This document shows, in pieces, positions 6,909 to 16,630 of a stretch of 40,433 nt of DNA. The translations under genes and the position numbers were made by a program. The notes under the pieces are model-generated. The model saw only the letters and a list, made by a program, of their open reading frames with translations. It had not been told where the DNA came from and did no database searches. The DNA is from Megasphaera geminata F0357 (GTDB lineage: Bacteria > Bacillota > Negativicutes > Veillonellales > Megasphaeraceae). Location: NCBI RefSeq assembly GCF_000239275.1, contig NZ_JH417605.1, forward strand, positions 94,480 to 134,912, given 5' to 3'. The first letter of the stretch is position 1. The number at the start of each line of letters is the position of its first letter.

Positions 6909-8302
6909 ATGAAACCCGTTAAAGCCTATGATCTGATTATTATCGGCGCCGGTCCCGCCGGTATCTTTACGGCTCTGGAGCTGGCCGATAAGGGACTGAA
7001 AATCCTTATGGTCGAAAAGGGGCAGGATATTCGTGAGCGTATAGTGACAAGCCGCAATAAGAATGCGCCCGCCAAAGACAAGATGCGTAACGTCGTCTGC
7101 GGCTGGGGCGGTGCCGGCGCCTTCAGTGACGGGAAGCTGACTCTGACGACCGAATTCGGCGGTAATCTGGATGATTATATGTCCAAGGCCGATTTGACGG
7201 AGAAAATCAATTATGTAGACGATACATACTGTCTTTTCGGAGGCGCTGAACGTAAAGTATACGGTGACGAGCATACGGAGCTTATCCGTGAGCTGCAACG
7301 CAAAGCTACGGCGGCGGACTTGCGTCTTATACCGGCGCGTATCCGTCATTTAGGGACGGATGTCAATGCGGAAATTCTGACGAATATGCGCGATTTCCTT
7401 GAAGGTAAAGTAGATATCATGGCCGATACGGCAGTGGAACACATTGTGGCGAAAGAGGATGAAATCAAAGGGGTCATCATTGGCGGGCAGCTTTACAGCT
7501 GTCGTTATCTTGTCAGCGCTCCCGGCCGCGAGGGATCCGAATGGTTTATGGAAGAAGCGGAAAAACTCGGTATTCAGTTGACCAGTAACGCCGTGGATAT
7601 CGGTGTGCGTGTGGAAATGCCGGCGGAAGTTCTGGAATCTATTACAGATGTCATCTATGAGTCGAAGCTTGTTTATTTCAGCCGTTCATTTGATGACCGC
7701 GTGCGCACGTTTTGCATGACCCCTTTGATTTCGTTGTTGAAGAAAATAATGACGGCCTGCTTACGGTAAACGGCCATAGTTATGCCCATAAGAAGAGTGA
7801 AAATACGAATTTTGCCGTTCTTGTTTCCAAAAAATTTACAGAACCTTTCAGGGAACCGATTAAATACGGTAAATATATTGCCAACCTTGCGAATATTCTC
7901 GGAGGCGGCGTTATAGTGCAGCGTCTGGGGGATCTTAATGACGGCCGTCGTTCTACGCCTGAACGAATCATGCGCGGACTCGTCCGCCCGACTATGGATA
8001 AGGCAACGCCCGGTGACTTGTCGCTTGTTTTACCGTACAGGCACTTGCAGGATATTAAAGAAATGCTTGAAGCGCTGGATAAGGTGGCGCCCGGCGCCAA
8101 TTCGCGGCATACTCTTTTATACGGGGTGGAAGTTAAATTCTACTCGAACCGCATTGAATTGAGCCCGAATCTGGAAACGAAGATTAAGAATTTTTTTGCT
8201 ATCGGCGACGGCGCCGGGATTACACGCGGCCTTATTCAGGCATCGGCGGCAGGCGTAACGGTCGGGCGGGAAATAGCCGTCCGTGAACGGGAACGTCGTT
8301 AA
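6909..8302 (+). CDS. COG2509-type FAD-dependent dehydrogenase/oxidoreductase, frameshifted
   Basis: An uncharacterised but widely conserved flavoprotein. An N-terminal Rossmann motif GAGPAG (13-18) follows the basic Lys/Tyr start. GWGGAGAFSDGKLTL in the middle is the hallmark of this family. Near the C-terminus, FFAIGDGAGITRGLIQASAAG forms the second FAD contact. The frame breaks at 7717-7723, inside a conserved RTFCM(N/T)P motif. Adding one base (AAC CCC or ACC CCC) gives a continuous protein of about 464 residues. The homopolymer C-run at the break suggests a sequencing deletion. GAGGAG sits 9 nt before ATG 6909. The physiological role is unknown. Confidence 0.85.
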
Positions 8303-8612
8303 GGATACTGTATTTAATGCCGGAACGGGGCGTCATATTTTAATAGCCATGGGGACCTGTCTGTTGCGGGCTGTTTGATATCTACTTTCCTCAAGGATGG
8401 ACCATGTTTTGTCATCCCTGTCGGGAGCGGAAAGGTTCAGCCAAAAAATAAGTGACCTTTTAATCATTAAAAAGAGTAATCATACTTTGCATAATTTATT
8501 ACCATCCATAATCGGCAGACTGCTGATTATGGATATTTTTTATAAATATTATGCGAAAAATGAGAACAAAGATATAATATATAAAGTCTATACAGAAAGG
8601 AGGTCAGTCAGT
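8303..8612. other. Intergenic region: terminator-like hairpin and promoter before the NifB-like operon
   Basis: About 310 bases lie between two plus-strand genes. 8303-8500 holds nothing recognisable. A long perfect inverted repeat ATCCATAATC/GATTATGGAT (8504-8534), with an inner GCAG/CTGC stem and followed by ATTTTTTAT, is a strong terminator. A TATAAT -10 at 8573-8578 (with TTATGC 18 nt upstream) then precedes the RBS AAAGGAGG (8597-8604). This layout isolates the next operon from the flavoprotein gene. Confidence 0.6.
8504..8541 (+). terminator. Strong hairpin terminator upstream of the NifB-like operon
   Basis: ATCCATAATC (8504-8513) pairs with GATTATGGAT (8525-8534). The loop itself contains GCAG-A-CTGC, and ATTTTTT follows. 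It most likely ends transcription from the flavoprotein gene. Confidence 0.7.
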
Positions 8613-9482
8613 ATGAATTTTTGGAAAGAGCGGATTTCAAGACGGCAGCTTATTAAGAGTGCGGTCGCCGCTACAGCCGCCGCCACTGCAGTGCCGAACC
8701 TGATTTCGGCGGGTTATACGCCGTTTAAATCCGATTCTTTGGATGTCTGGACTTGCGGGGGATTATCGGAAGCTTTTCTTCAGATAAATGATTTATATGA
8801 AGCGAAAACCGGGCATAATATTCAATATACGGGTGCGTTTGCGGGCGCACTGGGCAAGGCTCTGTTGACCCTTAAAGGGCAGACCGAGGTTTTCGGTGCG
8901 CGCGGCCTGGAGCTGGCGCAGAATATGCGCAAAAAAGGTATCAGCCTCGGGTTTAAACCGCTTTGTTTTACAGATTATGTCATTGCAGTACCGAAGGGCA
9001 ATCCGGCAGGCATTCGTGACCTTAAAGATTTGTCCGAACCGGGTGTTCGGGTTATGTTGCCTTTAGGCGCGTCTCCACCGGGCAGCGCCTCCGTTCAGGG
9101 GATTTTGAAAAAGTCGGGCCTTACGGATCCGATCATGCAAAACATGACTGTCAATGAAACGTGTGTTATCAAGATGCTGTGCGGTCTCATTGAGGGCAAA
9201 GGCGATGTTTCCATCATTGAAAAACGGCTTACCACGCATGCTCGTTTCAAAGATAAGATTGAATACATGCCTATTGAACCGAAATTTATCCCGCCTGCAC
9301 CGCTTACTTTTACTATTAATATCATGAAGTATGTTCAGGATAAAAAGCTGGCAGATGACTATGCGGATTTTGTCCGTTCCGAAGAAGGCCAGTCAATTCT
9401 TGAGAAGGGCGGTTTCACGTCCGTTCATTCGGCTCGCGGTCTGGATTTAATAGAAAGGTTCGGCGTAAAAGATGTCCAATAA
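8613..9482 (+). CDS. Tat-signal ModA-like substrate-binding protein
   Basis: A 289-residue exported protein. The N-terminus has SRRQLIK at 9-15 followed by an alanine-rich h-region, which fits a twin-arginine signal. The mature part resembles the ModA/WtpA class of oxyanion-binding proteins: VWTCGG, a GALGKALL segment, and the 'FTDYVIAVPKGNPAGIRDLKDL' region that normally crosses from lobe 1 to lobe 2. No ABC permease or ATPase lies nearby, which is unusual. Instead the gene overlaps by 11 nt the NapH-like gene and then the NifB-like gene. Start ATG 8613 is set by AAAGGAGG at 8 nt. The ligand (molybdate, tungstate or another anion or metal) is open. Confidence 0.75.
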   Translation: MNFWKERISRRQLIKSAVAATAAATAVPNLISAGYTPFKSDSLDVWTCGGLSEAFLQINDLYEAKTGHNIQYTGAFAGALGKALLTLKGQTEVFGARGLELAQNMRKKGISLGFKPLCFTDYVIAVPKGNPAGIRDLKDLSEPGVRVMLPLGASPPGSASVQGILKKSGLTDPIMQNMTVNETCVIKMLCGLIEGKGDVSIIEKRLTTHARFKDKIEYMPIEPKFIPPAPLTFTINIMKYVQDKKLADDYADFVRSEEGQSILEKGGFTSVHSARGLDLIERFGVKDVQ

Positions 9483-10248
9483 TGCAAAAACAAAAGAATT
9501 TTACCTCCCCAAGCTGCGTCGTCTTGTACAACTCGTTTTCCTCGCAGTCATGGGCAAATGGATCTATTACGGAATATTCCGATGTCCCTTTATCGTTCCC
9601 TTTGTCAATTGTGAACGATGTCCTGTCATCACCTGTTGGGGACGTATTACCGCTTACTTCTTCGGTTTCTGGCTCTTTATTCCGCTTCTGGCCGTCTTTT
9701 TGGGACGTGCTTTCTGCGGTTGGCTCTGTCCGAGCGGTTTTGTCAATCAACTGCTCGGTAAATTGGCTGTTACGAAGTTGAAAGTTCGTAATAAGTACAT
9801 GCGTTTGGCACAAATCGGCATGGTTCTGACCGTCTTCATCGGGTTGTGGGTATACTTTGCCTATGATAACCCGCGCGTCATGATTCCGATCCGTACGAGT
9901 GATGAATATTTTAATGCCGTCATCATGTCCGTCCGGTTTTCCGATTGGTACTGGGCCGTTCGTACGGTTATAGTCGTTTCGCTCATTGCGGCGTCACTTA
10001 TTATTGCCAACTTCTGGTGTCGTTTTGTATGTCCCGTCGGCGGAGCGATGGAACTTGTCCGCAAGATTTCTCTTTTCCGCGTTTATAAGACGGCAGCCTG
10101 CGACAATTGTGATGCATGTTTGCGTAAGTGTGAAATGGGTACGCGTCCTGACGAAATGAACTGTACTAATTGCGGTGATTGCCTGAATGTGTGTCATGCC
10201 GATGCCATCAAATTCGGGCGAAAGGGTAAAAATGATGACAGGCAGTAA
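9472..10248 (+). CDS. NapH/MauN-like membrane polyferredoxin
   Basis: A 258-residue inner-membrane electron-transfer protein. Hydrophobic segments lie at about 20-36, 60-80, 105-125 and 155-175. Two CxxxCP-type loops are present: CGWLCPSG at 82-89, and CRFVCPVGG near 183, as in NapH/CcoG/RdxA families. At the C-terminus two complete CxxCxxCxxxC sites (CDNCDACLRKC and CTNCGDCLNVC) can each bind a [4Fe-4S] cluster. An additional cysteine cluster (C38, C47, C50, C55) follows the first helix and is not part of standard NapH. The start overlaps the binding-protein gene, and the end overlaps the radical SAM gene by 17 nt. A role as electron donor to the radical SAM enzyme is an inference. Confidence 0.85.
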   Translation: MSNNAKTKEFYLPKLRRLVQLVFLAVMGKWIYYGIFRCPFIVPFVNCERCPVITCWGRITAYFFGFWLFIPLLAVFLGRAFCGWLCPSGFVNQLLGKLAVTKLKVRNKYMRLAQIGMVLTVFIGLWVYFAYDNPRVMIPIRTSDEYFNAVIMSVRFSDWYWAVRTVIVVSLIAASLIIANFWCRFVCPVGGAMELVRKISLFRVYKTAACDNCDACLRKCEMGTRPDEMNCTNCGDCLNVCHADAIKFGRKGKNDDRQ

Positions 10249-11065
10249 GACGCAGTCCTTCCTTAATAATCACCCCTGCTTCAATAAGGAAGCGTCTGTC
10301 AATTGGGGCCGCGTACATTTGCCGGTTGCGCCGCACTGCAATATCCAATGTAATTTCTGTAACCGGATGTATGATTGTGCCAACGAAAATCGTCCCGGCG
10401 TAACCCAAAAGGTATACAAACCTGACGAAACGGTCCCGTATCTGGAAAAACTTTTTGCAAAGCGCAGTGATATTTCCGTTATCGGTATTGCCGGACCGGG
10501 GGATCCTATGGCTGATGCCGATGAAACTCTGACTACTTTCGAGAAGTGTAAGGCCCGGTTTCCTCACCTTATGCTCTGTCTCTCAACGAACGGACTGGCG
10601 TTGCCCGAACATATTGATGAAATCATTTCTGTAGGCGTCAGTCACGTGACCGTTACGGTTAATGCGGTTCGGCCCGAAGTAGGCGCCGATGTCTATGCGT
10701 GGGTGCGTTACAACGGCATAACTTATAAAGGCATTGAAGGTGCGAGAATTCTCTTGGAACGCCAGGATGAAGGTATTCGGAAGTTGAAAAAAAAGGGCAT
10801 GATCGTAAAAATCAATACAGTCGTCATTCCCGAGGTCAATATGGATCATGTTCCCGAAATCGCGGCCAAGGCGAAGGCCTGGGGCGCGAATATTATGAAC
10901 TGTATGGCCATGATTCCCGTTCACGACACTCCTTTTGCAGGCAAAAAAACACCGTCTCAGAAAGACATTCATCGCTTGCGTCAATTTATCGGGCAAAATA
11001 TGCGGCAAATGACCCATTGCAGTCGTTGCCGTGCCGATGCCTGCGGTAAACTCGGGGCAGAATAG
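10232..11065 (+). CDS. Compact NifB-like radical SAM protein
   Basis: This 277-residue protein looks like the catalytic core of NifB, the enzyme that builds the NifB-co [8Fe-9S-C] precursor. It has HPC at 14-16, the VAPxCNIQCNFCNR core with SAM-cluster cysteines C36/C40/C43, the YDCANENRPGV segment, GIAGPGDP, LCLSTNGL, and a C-terminal HCSRCRADACG (CxxC at 263/266). All are positions where NifB proteins are conserved, and the HPC and CxxC cysteines belong to the K-cluster ligands. The C-terminal NifX-like domain is absent, as in short archaeal NifB. No nifHDK, nifE/N or nifX is in the window. Start ATG 10232 (or 10235) follows AAAGGG. Another metal-sulfur cofactor is possible. Confidence 0.82.
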   Translation: MMTGSKTQSFLNNHPCFNKEASVNWGRVHLPVAPHCNIQCNFCNRMYDCANENRPGVTQKVYKPDETVPYLEKLFAKRSDISVIGIAGPGDPMADADETLTTFEKCKARFPHLMLCLSTNGLALPEHIDEIISVGVSHVTVTVNAVRPEVGADVYAWVRYNGITYKGIEGARILLERQDEGIRKLKKKGMIVKINTVVIPEVNMDHVPEIAAKAKAWGANIMNCMAMIPVHDTPFAGKKTPSQKDIHRLRQFIGQNMRQMTHCSRCRADACGKLGAE

Positions 11066-11068
11066 ACG

Positions 11069-11102
11069 ATAAAAGACCTGGCCGGAAGAGCAGGTCTTTT
11101 AC
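11069..11102. terminator. Bidirectional terminator
   Basis: AAAAGACCTG (11071-11080) and CAGGTCTTTT (11091-11100) form a perfect stem between the converging NifB-like and desulfurase genes, so it can serve both strands. Confidence 0.9.
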
Positions 11103-11106
11103 TCCG

Positions 11107-12254
11107 TCAGCCGCAAATGGTATGTAATGCTTTTATGGCTGTAGCAATGTCCTCTTTTGTGTTAAAATAACCAAAAGAAAAGCGTACAGTTCCGCAGGGG
11201 AAAGTGCCTAAGGTCTTATGGGCCGACGGTGCGCAGTGAAGGCCGACGCGAGTTAAAATGCCGTATTCCGACTCTAAGCGAACGGCTATTTCCGAGTTGT
11301 CCATGTCCTCGGCAGCTATGGAAACGACGGCTGTACGATCAATGATATCCGTCCTGCCGGCAACGGTAATGCTTGTCATATCGGAGATTCCCGTGAGAAA
11401 GTGTTCTGTTAAAGACAGTTCCTTTTTATGGATGGTTTCGATACCTTCCGTGCGGACGAATTCCAGGGCCGCATGAAGACCGATAATCCCGGGAAGGTTC
11501 AGCGTGCCCGCTTCGAACTTATCCGGCAGAAAATCCGGCATCTCTTCCGTATGAGAGAGGCTGCCTGTGCCGCCTGCAAAAGGGGTGTCATTACTTCGGC
11601 GAGTTCATCGGTGATGACAAAACCGCCGATGCCCTGCGGGCCGAGGAGCCCTTTGTGACCGGTAAAGCAGAGGACGCCAATGTTCATCTCCGCCATATTG
11701 ATGGGGACTGTCCCCGCCGTTTGCGCCGCGTCAACAATAAAGAAGAGATTATGCTTCCTGCAGAACGCGCCTACTTCTTTTAAAGGCATAACGGTACCGC
11801 ATACATTAGAAGCATGGGTCATGACTACGGCTTTTGTTTCGGGCCGGACATAGTTGTCCATCTCTGTGAGGATAAGGCTGCCGTCTTTATGACAGGGAAG
11901 CCTGTCAAAGGTAAGGCCTTCTTTTTCCAGTTGCACGATCGGACGCATAACGGCATTGTGCTCCATTTCCGAAACAAGGAGATGGTCACCTCTGCCAAAG
12001 AGTCCTTTTATGACCATGTTTAAACTCATAGTTACATTCTGTGTAAAAATAACATTTTTCACGTCGCTGCCGCCGAAGAGTTCTTTCAGCCAGAGTCGGG
12101 TCATGAAGACTTTTTCTTCCGTGTCGTAAGCGGGAGCATAAGAACCGCGGTTGATATTGACCCCGCTGTTTGTGATGAAATCACTCATGGCGGCGGGTAC
12201 GGCCGCCGGTTTCGGAAAGGTTGTCGCGCCGTTGTCCAAGTATATTCTTTGCAT
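11107..12254 (-). CDS. Cysteine desulfurase-family protein (EF2568/TIGR01977 type), frameshifted
   Basis: A class V aminotransferase-fold PLP enzyme, about 382 residues once repaired. The N-terminus ([13 protein letters not shown]), H in [11 protein letters not shown], the PLP lysine in [13 protein letters not shown] (K201) and the catalytic-loop cysteine in [14 protein letters not shown] are all present. This subfamily is often encoded beside selD, and it may release Se from selenocysteine or S from cysteine. The frame breaks near 11572-11577. Adding one base gives [21 protein letters not shown], a conserved stretch. ATG 12254 is preceded by GGAGGAG. It is divergent from yedE across about 165 nt. 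Substrate preference for Se over S is inferred only from context. Confidence 0.85.
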
Positions 12255-12420
12255 TTTCTGTCTCCTCCATGTAAATTCCCTTACTCCGTTCAGTATAGTG
12301 GACATGGGGAGGTTTTTCAAATATCCGGATGAGAAATATTAATAAGGATATTTAAATACAGAAAAATAAAATATGTAATGCAGAACGGTGCAGTTTTCGG
12401 ATTTGAAAGGAGGATTTATT

Positions 12421-13482
12421 TTGGAATTAACACATGAAAAACGAGCTATTATCATTGCCGGTTTAATCATCGGCGCTATCGCCGGATTCCTGGTTCTTGC
12501 CGGAAATCCCGCAAACATGGGTTTTTGCATTGCCTGCTTTGTCCGCGATACTGTCGGCGGGCTGGGGTTGCACCGCGCCGCGCCTGTACAGTATATTCGT
12601 CCTGAAATTGTCGGTCTTATTTTAGGTTCGTTCTTCTTATCGCTTATCCGCGGTGAACATCAGACGAAAGGCGGTTCGTCGCCGCTGACGCGTTTTGTCC
12701 TCGGCTTTTTCGTCATGATCGGATGCCTCATGTTCCTGGGTTGCCCCTTCCGCCTGATTCTTCGTCTTGCCGGGGGTGACTGGAATGCCGTTATGGGATT
12801 TGTCGGTTTTGCTGTCGGCATCGGTATCGGCACGATTTTCCTTAAAAGAGGATATTCTCTGAAACGCACATATACGCTTACCAAACTTGATTCGGCAGCG
12901 ATGCCGGCTATTACGGCTGTTTTATTGATTCTTCTCGTTACGGCCCCCGCCTTTATCTTCTTCAGTGAAAAAGGTCCCGGTGCAACGCATGCATTCTGGG
13001 CGGTATCCCTTATTGCCGGTCTCGTAGTCGGCGGCTTGGCGCAGTATACGCGCCTTTGCATGGTCGGCGGTATTCGTGATATAATTTTGTTCCACGAAAC
13101 AAAATTGATTATGGGGTTTGTAGCTGTATTTGTTGCGGCATTTCTCGTAAATCTCGCATTCGGCAACTTCCATCCGGGCTTCGCTAATCAGCCCATTGCC
13201 CATACAGACGGCCTGTGGAACCTTCTCGGCATGGCACTTGCCGGTTTCGGCAGCATTCTTCTCGGCGGTTGCCCTTTACGCCAGCTCATTTTAACGGGCG
13301 AAGGCAACTCCGACTCGGCAATTGCCGTTCTCGGACTCGCGACAGGTGCGGCATTTTCGCATAATTTCGGCTTGGCCGCTTCCGGTGCGGGCCCGACATT
13401 TAACGGTGAAGTGGCTGTTATTTTCGGGTTTGTCATAGCATTCATTATCGCCGTCGCAAATACGCGTAAGCAAAACGCGTAA
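12421..13482 (+). CDS. yedE: YedE-type selenium-metabolism membrane protein
   Basis: A polytopic inner-membrane protein of 353 residues with about ten hydrophobic segments. It belongs to the YeeE/YedE family, whose YedE/FdhT branch co-occurs with selenium use. Paired cysteine motifs lie at helix ends: MGFCIACFVRD near the start, FLGCPFRLILR, RLCMVGGIRD and GGCPLRQLI. These recurring cysteines match the family's proposed role in moving thiosulfate- or selenium-bearing groups. The start is taken as TTG 12421 because AAAGGAGG ends 7 nt upstream; the open frame before it lacks an RBS. The gene leads the operon with yedF, the DUF3343 gene and selD. Confidence 0.87.
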   Translation: MELTHEKRAIIIAGLIIGAIAGFLVLAGNPANMGFCIACFVRDTVGGLGLHRAAPVQYIRPEIVGLILGSFFLSLIRGEHQTKGGSSPLTRFVLGFFVMIGCLMFLGCPFRLILRLAGGDWNAVMGFVGFAVGIGIGTIFLKRGYSLKRTYTLTKLDSAAMPAITAVLLILLVTAPAFIFFSEKGPGATHAFWAVSLIAGLVVGGLAQYTRLCMVGGIRDIILFHETKLIMGFVAVFVAAFLVNLAFGNFHPGFANQPIAHTDGLWNLLGMALAGFGSILLGGCPLRQLILTGEGNSDSAIAVLGLATGAAFSHNFGLAASGAGPTFNGEVAVIFGFVIAFIIAVANTRKQNA

Positions 13483-13497
13483 AAAGGAGGGATTACG

Positions 13498-13701
13498 ATG
13501 ATAGACGCAAGAGGATATTCTTGCCCTGAACCGGTCATTATGGCAAAAAAAGCGTTGGAATCCGGTGAACAGGAATATGAAATGATGGTTGACACTCATA
13601 CGGCCATGGAAAATGTAACTCGTTATGTATCGCGTAACGGGTATGCCGTTACTTCCACCCCGGAAGGCGGCGATTTCCGGCTCGTTTTTAAAAAGAAATA
13701 G
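13498..13701 (+). CDS. yedF: YedF/TusA-like single-domain sulfur or selenium carrier
   Basis: A 67-residue TusA/SirA-fold protein. The family motif Cys-Pro-x-Pro occurs as SCPEPVIMAKKAL, whose cysteine (residue 9) can carry a persulfide or perselenide. In many Firmicutes the selenium-linked YedF is about 200 residues with a second DsrE-like domain; here only the TusA domain is present, with a separate DUF3343 gene next door. The RBS AAAGGAGG lies directly ahead of ATG 13498, 15 nt after yedE. It probably accepts Se or S from the desulfurase or from YedE and passes it towards SelD; this is inference from context. Confidence 0.88.
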   Translation: MIDARGYSCPEPVIMAKKALESGEQEYEMMVDTHTAMENVTRYVSRNGYAVTSTPEGGDFRLVFKKK

Positions 13702-13723: not shown

Positions 13724-13966
13724 ATGCGTTATATCGCTACTTTTTACTCGCACTTCGGTGCCATTCGTTTTAAAAACGAAGCGCACTCTTCGGTGACGTC
13801 GATTGAATTGATGCCCGTGCCGCGAAACCTGAGTTCGTCTTGCGGCACGTGTGCCCGTTTCGAGGCACCTGACGACTATACCTATCAATGCGATGAAAGT
13901 GGTGAAGTCGAACAGGTCGTTCGTGAAACGGACAACGGTTTTGAACAGATTTACAGTTCGACATAA
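13724..13966 (+). CDS. DUF3343 putative Se/S carrier-like protein
   Basis: An 80-residue protein of the DUF3343 (Se/S carrier-like) family. The hallmark is the 'MPVPRNLSSSCGTC' stretch at about 31-44, where a conserved cysteine follows a proline-rich loop; here there are two (CGTC). The N-terminal YIATFYSHFGAIRFK strand-helix is also typical. ATG 13724 is chosen, with in-frame GTG 13718 as alternative; the RBS is weak. It lies between yedF and selD (12-nt gap to selD) in one operon. A role in handing selenium to SelD is suggested by family co-occurrence, not shown. Confidence 0.82.
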   Translation: MRYIATFYSHFGAIRFKNEAHSSVTSIELMPVPRNLSSSCGTCARFEAPDDYTYQCDESGEVEQVVRETDNGFEQIYSST

Positions 13967-13978
13967 AGGGTGATTACA

Positions 13979-15016
13979 ATGAGCAGTAATATTAAATTAA
14001 CGGAAATGGCGTCCTGCGCCGGCTGAGGCGCTAAAATCGGCGCCGGTGTACTGGCGCAAATGTTGGACGGCATTCCCCGCCACCACGATGATCGTCTTAT
14101 CGTAGGGTATGATAAGAGTGACGATGCCTCTGTCTATGTAGTGCGCGACGATTTGGCGATTGTTCAGTCCGTCGACTTTTTTCCTCCTATCGTAGACGAT
14201 CCGTATACGTTCGGACAGATTGCGGCAGCAAACTCGTTAAGCGATATTTTCGCTATGGGCGCTGAACCGAAACTGGCAATGAATGTTATGGCTATCAATT
14301 CGGCCATGGGGCAGGAGGCTGTGCGGGACCTTTTGCAGGGAGGCTACAGTAAGGCTTATGAAGCGGGCGTGCTTATTACGGGAGGGCATACCATTGAAGA
14401 TAAAGAACCGAAGTACGGCCTTTCCGTAACCGGTTTCATGCATCCCGCTCAACTTCTCAGCAACTCGTCAGCCAGGGAAGGAGATATCTTGCTTCTGACG
14501 AAGCCGCTTGGCGTCGGTATTTTGACGACGGCCGCCAAGGTAGGCCTTGTTGATGAAACATTGGAACGGCAGCTCTTCAAAGAAATGGCGGAACTCAACA
14601 AGTACGGCCGTGATATCATGATCAAGTATGATGTACACAGCTGTACGGATATTACCGGATTCGGCCTTATGGGGCATGCTTATGAAATGGCGTCGGGAAG
14701 CGGTGTGACCATTCACCTGGATGCGGCGGACGTGCCGTATCATGAAGAAGCGATTGCAATGGCAGAGCAGGGATTCATTCCTGCCGGAGCTTATCGCAAC
14801 CGTGATTATACGGAAGGCCATGTTCGCATAGAAGGTAATGTGAGCGCCCCGGTTCTGGATATTCTCTATGATCCGCAAACTTCCGGCGGCCTCATGATCG
14901 CTGTCAGTGAAAAAGACGCAATCGCTTTGGAAAGAGAATTGAAGGGCAGCCTGCCGTGCGGGCAAATCATCGGCCATGTAACGGCAAAAGAAGATGCTGA
15001 CCTTGTTATTGACTAG
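13979..15016 (+). CDS. selD: Selenide, water dikinase, itself a selenoprotein (UGA = Sec16)
   Basis: SelD makes selenophosphate from selenide and ATP for Sec-tRNA and selenouridine synthesis. From ATG 13979 the protein reads ...TEMASCAG, then TGA at 14024-14026, then GAKIG. The UGA falls exactly where SelD proteins carry catalytic Cys or Sec, and the next residues (GAKI) include the catalytic lysine. An open frame from about 14060 onward carries the remaining PurM-like ATP-binding features (VQSVDFFPPIVDDPYTFG; DIFAMGAEP; CTDITGFGLMGHA; DPQTSGGL). The product is 345 residues counting Sec16. A possible SECIS hairpin lies downstream. It is the last gene of the yedE operon, followed by a terminator. 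A conventional caller would miss the first 27 codons. Confidence 0.95.
14024..14060 (+). promoter_or_regulatory. UGA recoding site with candidate bacterial SECIS element of selD
   Basis: After TGA 14024-14026, GCGCC (14040-14044) pairs with GGCGC (14053-14057) around the loop GGTGTACT. The 13-nt distance from the UGA and a loop starting with GGU resemble bacterial SECIS hairpins, which put G/U-rich loops about 11-16 nt downstream of the UGA. A competing shorter stem (GGCGC 14027-14031 with GCGCC) is possible. Confidence 0.6.
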
Positions 15017-15062: not shown

Positions 15063-15335
15063 TATATATTTGTGTAAATAATCCCGTGAATGAGCGGGAT
15101 GTTTTAGCCGTAAGAAACGGACAGATCCTTAATGAATGATTAAAATTGATCAATCCCGCCACATGGGCTTTTCTGGAGCTGAAACGGGCGGCCTTTCGGA
15201 AACGCGCTTCAGTAAAAGTTGTACCGGAGTGCACGATACTGAGATAAGTTAAAAGACATAAAAAAATCGCCTGATATGGTGTATAATAAAGAATATAAAT
15301 TATATTCATGCTTGCGCACAAAGGAGAGAGTTAAC
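15063..15335. other. Intergenic region before purB
   Basis: About 270 bases without a convincing gene. A perfect -10 TATAAT is at 15282-15287, 48 nt before the purB start, with no strong -35. A short stem ATCCCG(tgaatga)GCGGGAT lies at about 15082-15101. No purine-riboswitch core was recognised. The rest shows nothing identifiable. Confidence 0.5.
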
Positions 15336-16630
15336 GTGATTGAACGCTATACCAATGAAGCAATGGGTCATATTTGGAGTGAACAGAACGAATGGGATAC
15401 GCTGAAACTGGTGGAAATCCTTGCCAGTGAAGCACAGGCCGAACTCGGCAATATTCCGAAAAAAGCAGCTGAAGAAATTCGTGAAAAAGCGGCTTTCTCC
15501 GTTGAACGCATTCATGAAATAGAAGCGGAAACGCATCATGATATTGCCGCTTTTGTTTCCAACCTTTCCGAAAATATCGGCGAAGCAGGAAAATATGTCC
15601 ATCTCGGACTCACGTCTACAGATGTTAAGGATACGGCTTTGGGTTACATGTTAAAACAAGCTTCTGAGATTCTCCTGGCAAGGATTTGGAAGCATTCCGT
15701 AATGTCTTACGCCGTCGTGCCGTTGAATTTAAATATACGCCGACTATCGGGCGTACGCACGGCATTCATGCCGAAGCGACAACTTTCGGCTTAAAGCTCT
15801 GCGTGTGGCTTGCCGAAACGGAACGCAATATTAAACGCATGAAGCGTGCGAAAAATGTCGTTTCTGTCGGCAAAATTTCCGGTGCCGTCGGTACTTATGC
15901 GGATATAGATCCTTTCGTCGAAGAGTATGTCTGCAAAAAACTGGATATTACACCGTCGCCCGTTTCGACACAAACATTGCAGCGGGACCGTCATGCCGAA
16001 TTCATGACGACCTTGGCCGTTATTGCCAGCTCAATTGATAAATTCGCAACGGAAATCCGTCATCTTCAGCGTACGGAAGTCCGCGAAGCGGAAGAATATT
16101 TCAGTCCCAAACAAAAAGGGTCATCCATTATGCCGCACAAGCGTAATCCCGTTACATGCGAACGTATGTGCGGCTTAGCCCGTGTTATCCGCGGCAATGC
16201 GCAGGCTGCTCTTGAAGATGTAGCGCTCTGGCATGAACGCGATATTTCTCATTCTTCCGTGGAACGCATCATTCTTCCGGACAGTACGATTGCTCTCGAC
16301 TATATGCTCACCACGTTCACTCGTGTTATTGACAGGCTTATCGTTTATCCGGAAAAAATGATGCAAGATCTGAAACTTACAGGCGGCCTTATCTTCAGCC
16401 CCATTCTTCTTAATACGCTTGTCGAAAAAGGAGCCGTTCGCGAACAGGCATACCGTTGGGTACAGCGTAATGCAATGAAACGATGGCTTGAAGGGGAAGA
16501 TTTCTTGGATAACCTGAAAAAAGACGAAGATATTGCTGCCGTCATGACAAACGAAGAAATTGAGGAATGCTTTGACGTTAAAAAAATGCTCCGCCACGTT
16601 GATACGATTTTTGCTCGTTTCGGCTTGTAA
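15336..16630 (+). CDS. purB: Adenylosuccinate lyase, frameshifted
   Basis: PurB cleaves SAICAR and adenylosuccinate in purine synthesis. The N-terminus (RYTNEAMGHIWSEQNEWDTL), the THHDIAAFV and LGLTSTDVKDTALGYML segments, GRTHGIHAEATTFG with its catalytic His, and the fumarase/lyase signature GSSIMPHKRNP (about residues 261-271) are all present. The frame is interrupted at 15678-15682. Adding one A (GCA AAG GAT TTG) restores LLAKDLEAFRNVLRRRA, after which the protein is collinear with the family at 432 residues. The GTG 15336 start has AAAGGAGAG 7 nt upstream. Loss of purB would cause purine auxotrophy, so the homopolymer indel is more likely an artefact. Confidence 0.9.

Follow-up and report, generated by a model that had tools for sequence, protein, structure and literature searches.

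The [8Fe-9S-C] cluster made by the radical S-adenosylmethionine (SAM) protein NifB has long been tied to the nitrogenase family, and NifB-like genes can accompany nitrogenase-like genes (PMC3464626; papers given by PMC number are cited throughout from excerpts). Outside the Nif family, L-cluster-like clusters with Cys and His ligands were reported in 2025 for McrC/Mmp7 of the methyl-coenzyme M reductase (MCR) activation complex of methanogens (PMC12176620), and the NifB-like MarB of methylthio-alkane reductase (MAR, MarBHDK) is assumed to feed a non-diazotrophic enzyme (PMC12552129). Here we describe a three-gene unit in a 40,433-nucleotide stretch of Megasphaera geminata F0357 (NZ_JH417605.1; positions 94480-134912 of contig C46, hereafter the window), in which a short NifB is encoded behind a solute-binding protein (SBP) with a twin-arginine translocation (Tat) motif and a NapH-like membrane polyferredoxin. 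The host genome comprises 1.8 Mb in 57 contigs and is 88% complete. We propose, with a probability of about 0.5, that the unit is a nitrogenase-independent NifB system, in which a NifB-made [8Fe-9S-C]-type cluster would be carried out of the cytoplasm by the SBP through Tat, with the NapH-like protein as redox partner. The broader idea that NifB-co-like chemistry is used outside nitrogenase, raised in a first-pass annotation of the window, is well supported because of the position of the protein in the NifB tree, its kept ligands, the conservation of the unit over several phyla and its presence in many hosts that show no nitrogenase-fold protein.

With the nitrogenase branch the unit shares the NifB core, its ligands and presumably its product, but many of its hosts have no NifEN or NifDK and its partners are the SBP and the NapH-like protein. 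With McrC/Mmp7 it would share the use of proteins without the Nif fold as sites for NifB-type [8Fe-9S-C] clusters, as predicted here for the SBP; unlike the SBP, those proteins are archaeal and belong to the MCR activation complex rather than being exported binding proteins (PMC12176620, as excerpted). MarBHDK differs in having the nitrogenase fold and a NifH-type reductase, MarH (PMC12552129, as excerpted). No NifB-SBP-NapH unit was described in the titles and abstract openings of the open-access literature searched, a scope that left aside subscription papers and bioRxiv.

The three genes are intact, overlap one another and are flanked by two terminator-like hairpins:

8504..8534, + strand: terminator-like hairpin 5' of the unit, 14-bp hairpin followed by a T-run (-19.1 kcal/mol, z -6.3)
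8613..9482, + strand: SBP (Tat-type, predicted ModA-fold binding protein), ATG at 8613, SBP_bac_11 match
9472..10248, + strand: NapH-like membrane polyferredoxin, Fer4_5 and NapH/MauN matches, 16 invariant cysteines
10232..11065, + strand: NifB core protein without NifX domain, ATG at 10232 or 10235, supported by ligands, solved relatives and tree
11070..11101, no strand assigned: terminator-like hairpin where the NifB and desulfurase-like genes converge (-20.9 kcal/mol, z -4.4)

This is the arrangement that the first-pass annotation had read from the letters, with overlaps of 11 and 17 nt and a terminator at each end, and it stood up to closer analysis: the open reading frames (ORFs) are intact with matches to the expected families, and the overlaps are 11 nt (9472-9482) and, only with the NifB start at 10232, 17 nt (14 nt from 10235). 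Both hairpins folded more stably than all of 200 shuffled sequences. A terminator consensus scan picked up the hairpin at 8504-8534 and not that at 11070-11101; its 6 sites in the window were no excess over shuffles (7.2). The hairpin at about 11070-11101, directly behind NifB, can serve both convergent genes.

The NifB-like protein matched TIGR01290 (nifB) with an E-value of 7.6e-101 and 338 bits, slightly below the cut-off of 343.65; this model spans 441 positions and its C-terminal third is absent from the short window protein. The latter shares 41-43% identity with the long NifBs of another member of its genus. Its solved relatives are four chains, three named NifB and a fourth (6y1x) whose deposited name is radical SAM protein, and these are likewise short (288-309 residues). 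In MaNifB, K1 is held by Cys30, Cys63 and Cys129, K2 by Cys264, Cys274 and Cys277, and His43 is a further ligand (PMC6053413, PMC7145814). The corresponding sites in the window were assigned as follows:

10271..10279, + strand: HPC motif, with C15 equivalent by position to K1 ligand Cys30 of MaNifB
10316..10318, + strand: His28, equivalent by its spacing from C15 to MaNifB His43, the nitrogen ligand of K1
10337..10360, + strand: CxxxCxxC radical SAM motif (C35, C39, C42)
10376..10378, + strand: C48, equivalent by position to K1 ligand Cys63 of MaNifB
10577..10579, + strand: C115, taken as K1 ligand Cys129 of MaNifB
11018..11029, + strand: C-terminal CxxC (C262, C265), taken as K2 ligands Cys274 and Cys277 of MaNifB

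The window NifB thus has the CxxxCxxC motif of the SAM cluster, the HPC motif and the C-terminal CxxC, as first annotated, and with them the K1 ligands (three Cys and the His). In an alignment of 52 unit-linked NifBs, C15, C35, C39 and C42 were found in 52/52, C115 in 50/50, C262 and C265 in 48/48, and H28 in at least 95%. C48 was present in all 46 downstream-type rows, while among the upstream-type and fused rows a nearby, shifted cysteine was found in 7/8 and none in L169.

The placement within the NifB clade for which the first-pass annotation had called was examined in a tree of 80 rows with no non-NifB outgroup. The unit-linked fragments L109, L110 and L118, the fragment L193 and both frames in which NifB and SBP are fused were dropped, as were L188 and L190, duplicates of L102 and L104; of the TIGR01290 matches from the genome search described below, the tree took in those of 30 retrieved loci plus L016 and L018. 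The window protein fell inside this tree, in a supported 24-row clade made solely of unit-linked NifBs and separate from the long nif-type NifBs, even where Sporomusa and M. cerevisiae genomes carry both kinds. The remaining unit-linked NifBs formed two more groups and one archaeal-like group with the gene order NifB-SBP-NapH. Since unit-linked NifBs thus occur in more than one clade, including an archaeal-like one with the opposite gene order, the link between NifB and SBP probably arose at least twice. Judged by sequence identity, solved relatives and tree, the window protein is a NifB. The unit of Campylobacter concisus (L102, L104), with about 75% NifB identity, is nested beside Megasphaera micronuciformis in the tree, which makes horizontal transfer likely.

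The first gene of the unit encodes a protein that matched SBP_bac_11 (8.3e-40), and the best matches of its structure model (mean predicted local distance difference test score 94) were molybdate-binding proteins, which points to a ModA-like fold. It would share this fold with the ModA/PEB3 binding proteins of SBP_bac_11, from which it differs by three invariant cysteines, a Tat motif and the lack of a transporter partner in the unit, where no permease or ATPase gene was found. Its score against TIGR01256 (modA) was 25.8 of the 62.5 bits required, and ordinary molybdate ATP-binding cassette (ABC) uptake by a ModA was rejected on this score, the cysteines and the lack of transporter genes in the unit. 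The window protein stayed sub-threshold against Pfam TAT_signal (20.7 of 22.7 bits); a twin-arginine pattern was found in 80/81 SBPs, the exception, L174, reading DRRFWLK. The three cysteine codons are:

8754..8756, + strand: SBP Cys48 (W-x-CGG)
8964..8966, + strand: SBP Cys118 (PLCFT)
9162..9164, + strand: SBP Cys184 (CV, helix start)

These cysteines were invariant (80/80, 81/81 and 81/81 sequences, respectively) and were also kept where NifB is not adjacent (29/29 each); Cys118 and Cys184 are part of neither of the patterns used in the search described below. In mature numbering, profile alignments placed C15 in the first-strand loop near the ModA serine and C151 at a helix start, with C85 on a strand between these two segments. 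We take the first-strand loop and that helix start to be the oxyanion-binding segments of ModA, on the basis of the ligand residues of the E. coli protein. The aligned ModA and PEB3 chains have no Cys at the C15 and C151 positions.

The NapH-like protein matched the NapH/MauN model at 3.1e-16 (59.7 of 213 bits) as well as Fer4_5, and 16 of its cysteines were invariant over 76 or 77 rows. No relative was found in the PDB at E 0.01. It shares the Fer4_5 region and ferredoxin-type cysteines with the polyferredoxins NapH, NosR and MauN but differs from them in having the SBP as its genetic partner and in an additional motif:

9583..9636, + strand: extra N-terminal four-Cys motif (C38-C47-C50-C55), outside the 61-248 stretch matched by the NapH/MauN model

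No nap genes were seen by eye among the ORFs of the window, and on the NapH score and these neighbours the protein does not qualify as the NapH of nitrate reductase.

The synteny check proposed at first pass was borne out in the order of the host, where NifB of the window kind occurs in 12/61 genomes, each time in the order SBP-NapH-NifB, so that all 11 of the other small-NifB loci share it. For a wider scan, an SBP alignment was run against GTDB species genomes, candidates were required to contain the peptide YTGAFAGA or VW[TS]CGGL[SA]E, and the best 80 of 83 loci were taken. These further loci belong to Negativicutes, Campylobacter concisus, many Desulfobacterota and metagenome-assembled genomes (MAGs) deposited as Acidobacteriota, Phycisphaerae, Bacteroidales, Chitinivibrionales and others. 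NapH follows the SBP in 76/80 loci, with an 8-nt overlap in 54 of the 76, and NifB is attached in 53/80: directly downstream in 45, upstream in 6 and, in the remaining 2, sharing an uninterrupted frame with the SBP:

L139:5823-7607: NifB and Tat-SBP in one open frame, Phycisphaerae MAG
L174:7140-8843: NifB and Tat-SBP in one open frame, Chitinivibrionales MAG

A chance neighbourhood of the three genes was rejected on the 11/11 loci of the order and then on the 53/80. Of the 27 loci without attached NifB, 7 end less than 1 kb from the SBP stop. NifB was then sought in 50 genomes behind the 80 loci (the 27 unattached, the 2 fused, the 6 upstream and 15 chosen downstream cases), and a TIGR01290 match at E 1e-20 was obtained in 46, with NifB lying elsewhere in 23 of the 27 genomes without an attached copy. 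Co-occurrence was examined in 199 genomes from the sulfate-reducer family of Solidesulfovibrio alcoholivorans (G082), in which the SBP is found in 37 genomes and NifB in 116. NifB was present in 37/37 genomes with the SBP vs 79/162 others (Fisher 1.2e-10, uncorrected for shared descent). Among these 37, the listed NifB is not adjacent in 17 (6-7 kb off in 8) and adjacent in 13, and the other 7 may be of either kind; the 17 non-adjacent cases by themselves gave a Fisher value of 1.2e-5, again uncorrected for shared descent. At the Solidesulfovibrio loci L152, L159, L164 and L168, a distance of 6-7 kb separates the SBP-NapH pair from a nifB of the long nif type.

The first-pass annotation had seen no nitrogenase genes around the unit. 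This holds for the window and fails for the genome, since a nitrogenase-like cluster lies on the same contig:

L004:450-13003 (G000:C46:450-13003): nitrogenase-like cluster about 90 kb from the unit

It encodes a TM1266-like regulator, NifH-, NifD- and NifK-like (HDK) proteins, HypF, HypD and HypE, a second NifD-, NifK- and NifH-like set and HydF, with some of the genes frame-shifted. The host genome gave three PF00148 matches (77-109 bits). Three of the four D/K-like proteins were scanned, the frame-shifted fourth being left out, and because all scored far under the nifD, nifE and nifK cut-offs, the cluster is nitrogenase-like and not nitrogenase. A complete nitrogenase cluster (HDK and EN; nif, vnf or anf), which the first-pass annotation had named as a finding to look for, was not found in the host genome at its 88% completeness.

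The nearby HDK genes raise the possibility that NifB serves the HDK-hypDEF-HDK-hydF proteins, with the SBP and NapH-like protein as accessories, the more so as a NifB-type product is assumed for some nitrogenase-like enzymes such as MAR (PMC12552129, as excerpted). The two distributions do not match, however. In the host family the first NifD-like protein occurs in 16/17 genomes and the NifB unit in 6/17, and 11 of the 16 genomes with the HDK cluster lack NifB of the window kind. Conversely, G007 of the host family and six genomes of genus g12 (two assembled in a single contig) contain the unit and show no PF00148 match at E 0.001, making 7/12 unit genomes of the order without one. In further genomes with NifB beside the SBP, no PF00148 match was obtained at E 1e-8 in 16/41, or in 18/43 with both fused-frame genomes, which likewise lack one; pooled, 25/55 genomes with an attached NifB have no nitrogenase-fold match, many of the 25 being draft MAGs. 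As the HDK cluster occurs without NifB and the unit without PF00148, the two systems are independent; a partnership of NifB with the host cluster was rejected on these grounds, and we leave it only a very slight chance. The host cluster itself, two HDK sets interleaved with hypF, hypD and hypE and then hydF, does not depend on NifB and, if HydE and HydG are absent from the host, could be another route to hydrogenase ligands. A single NifX/NafY-like (PF02579) match in the host genome (G000:C25:72563-72826, L008) is a possible cluster carrier.

On its downstream side the unit adjoins sulfur and selenium genes that were overlooked at first pass:

11107..12320, - strand: cysteine-desulfurase/selenocysteine-lyase-like aminotransferase V (EF2568 type), broken into two frames
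12388..13482, + strand: YedE family putative selenium transporter (TIGR04112 501.8 bits, cut-off 200)
13498..13701, + strand: YedF/TusA-like sulfurtransferase (TusA over cut-off, YedF models under cut-off)
13724..13966, + strand: small protein resembling Se_S_carrier (DUF3343), assigned by reading the sequence; PF11823 is matched by a relative in L116
13979..15016, + strand: SelD with in-frame TGA (CAGUGAK)

An intact relative of the desulfurase-like gene (L084) scored 468.6 bits against TIGR01977 (cut-off 377). The TGA of selD lies at 14024-14026 and the listed ORF, from 14060, misses the true start; SelD is probably a selenoprotein. The YedE-YedF-DUF3343-SelD set is described in PMC9312934, and these genes are neighbours of the unit in Negativicutes and in some phyla besides; the excerpted text of that paper does not tie the set to NifB or mention NifB. 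YedE was found in 12/12 unit genomes of the host order vs 8/49 others, in 6/6 vs 0/8 in genus g12, and in 17/80 of the retrieved stretches, from at least 3 phyla; the desulfurase-like gene was found in 11/80 loci (that of L117 only 26% alike) and the YedF-like gene in 13/80. The genes at 808-2075, 6909-8302, 11107-12320 and 15276-16630 of the window are seemingly split into two frames, which suggests indel errors in the draft genome; the three unit genes are intact. Near the unit in L112, L121, L142 and L175 lie genes for HGD-D (double-cubane-type) proteins, some with a BcrA-type ATPase gene. As clients of the NifB product, the HGD-D proteins (cluster c15; 5/80 loci) and molybdopterin oxidoreductases (c5; 8/80 loci) were both considered but occur near the unit too seldom for a general role, one member of each having been scanned.

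We propose the following plausible pathway. The short NifB would join two [4Fe-4S] clusters, with a carbon from SAM, to give NifB-co, a cluster of the [8Fe-9S-C] type; this step is well supported by sequence. The client of this product is probably the three-cysteine SBP itself, since the SBP tracks NifB even when the two are unlinked: the cluster, or a derivative of it, may be placed in the cleft of the ModA-fold SBP, where the three invariant cysteines would hold it, while the SBP is still cytoplasmic. The folded, loaded SBP would then be exported by Tat, and the motif observed fits an exported protein that needs loading before export. The NapH-like protein, which fits electron exchange across the membrane, would exchange electrons with the exported SBP, and the SBP would thereby act as a redox enzyme outside the cytoplasm; exported metalloenzymes are served in a comparable way by proteins of the NosR/NapGH type. 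As a genomic hint, the substrate or product may be a sulfur or selenium compound, with YedE for its uptake and YedF, the desulfurase-like enzyme and SelD for its handling.

The selenium genes directly downstream in the window, the YedE association in the order and in genus g12, and the occurrence of desulfurase-like and YedF-like genes at other loci also fit a different arrangement, in which the SBP thiols would trap sulfur, selenium or arsenic species (or hold an ordinary Fe-S cluster) and the NapH-like protein would reduce what is bound, the NifB cluster residing in NapH or another protein and the unit being a device for selenium or sulfur assimilation. This we consider unlikely, since it requires a separate NifB client, yet the SBP tracks NifB even unlinked, and 63/80 loci show no YedE match within the retrieved stretch. 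The first-pass annotation had instead assigned the SBP the task of sensing or supplying a metal oxyanion, of the molybdate or tungstate type, for a NifB-derived cofactor used elsewhere, with NapH giving electrons. The predicted fold, with molybdate-binding proteins as nearest solved folds, is in keeping with this, as is a second SBP or ABC-ATPase-like gene in the stretches of the four Solidesulfovibrio loci. The proposal is nevertheless not favoured and looks quite improbable, given the low modA score, the three invariant cysteines, two of which align at or next to the pocket segments of ModA, the Tat motif and the lack of a permease or ATPase in the unit; the SBP looks more like a client of the NifB product. 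Molybdate-type binding proteins usually have Sec signals, not Tat. Lastly, the NifB homologue may have changed its function towards a different radical SAM chemistry, for instance modifying the SBP or NapH, as its short form without NifX domain, its own clade and one K2 ligand position that is not conserved would allow. We regard this as very unlikely, for the K1 and SAM ligands, the His43 equivalent and the C-terminal CxxC are kept (setting aside the C48 variation noted above), the solved NifB chains are also short, and where the SBP is unattached, the genomes seem to depend on NifBs of the long nif type.

Several observations weigh against a NifB system with an exported, cluster-bearing SBP. 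The K-cluster check suggested at first pass came out in favour for K1 and the C-terminal CxxC and against for the third K2 cysteine (MaNifB Cys264), which has no counterpart, no Cys lying about 10 residues before C262; that counterpart is also missing from 6y1x, so it is perhaps no general NifB requirement. The three SBP cysteines could instead hold a different metal, a plain Fe-S cluster or some thiol-reactive ligand, and their meeting in the cleft is assumed. No carrier (NafY/NifX) gene was found in the unit. YedE lies near the unit in only 17/80 loci, and 30/55 unit genomes do have nitrogenase-fold proteins. The twin-arginine motif is internal in both predicted fused frames, a poor fit to simple export. 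The scan profile was built from 12 NifB-linked SBPs, so the 53/80 share with attached NifB leans upward; the Cys48 count leans upward too, this residue belonging to one of the two search patterns, yet Cys48 is present in all readable sequences among the 31 retrieved by the other pattern, and its conservation is thus more than a search artefact. Of the 23 genomes with NifB elsewhere, G085 has it beside a second SBP copy (L172) and G067 and G086 have fragments only, maybe the missing flank. Four of the 27 unattached genomes (G062, G072, G073 and G083, all MAGs) gave no TIGR01290 match at E 1e-20, although G072 has nifDK-type matches and is therefore probably incomplete. The co-occurrence tests ignore phylogeny: NifB is common anyway in the S. 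alcoholivorans family, and the 8 genomes in which a long nif-type NifB lies 6-7 kb away from the SBP resemble one lineage.

Overall, the data suggest that many anaerobic bacteria, among them some with no nitrogenase found, put the NifB cluster to a second, so far unrecognised use outside the cytoplasm. More tentatively, and with somewhat less than an even chance, sulfate reducers, Sporomusa, Veillonella, Megasphaera and others would use a NifB carbide cluster in a Tat-exported ModA-fold protein as an ATP-independent reductase that is fed by the NapH-like protein, has no relation to the nitrogenase fold and may have sulfur or selenium compounds as substrates. If the proposed system is correct, the unit would be another exception to the tie between the [8Fe-9S-C] cluster and nitrogenase, would explain NifB genes in bacteria without nitrogenase and would call for caution in the use of nifB as a marker of diazotrophy. 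The SBP, as a small exported acceptor in a widespread bacterial system, would then also offer a one-domain scaffold for the study and engineering of the [8Fe-9S-C] cofactor.

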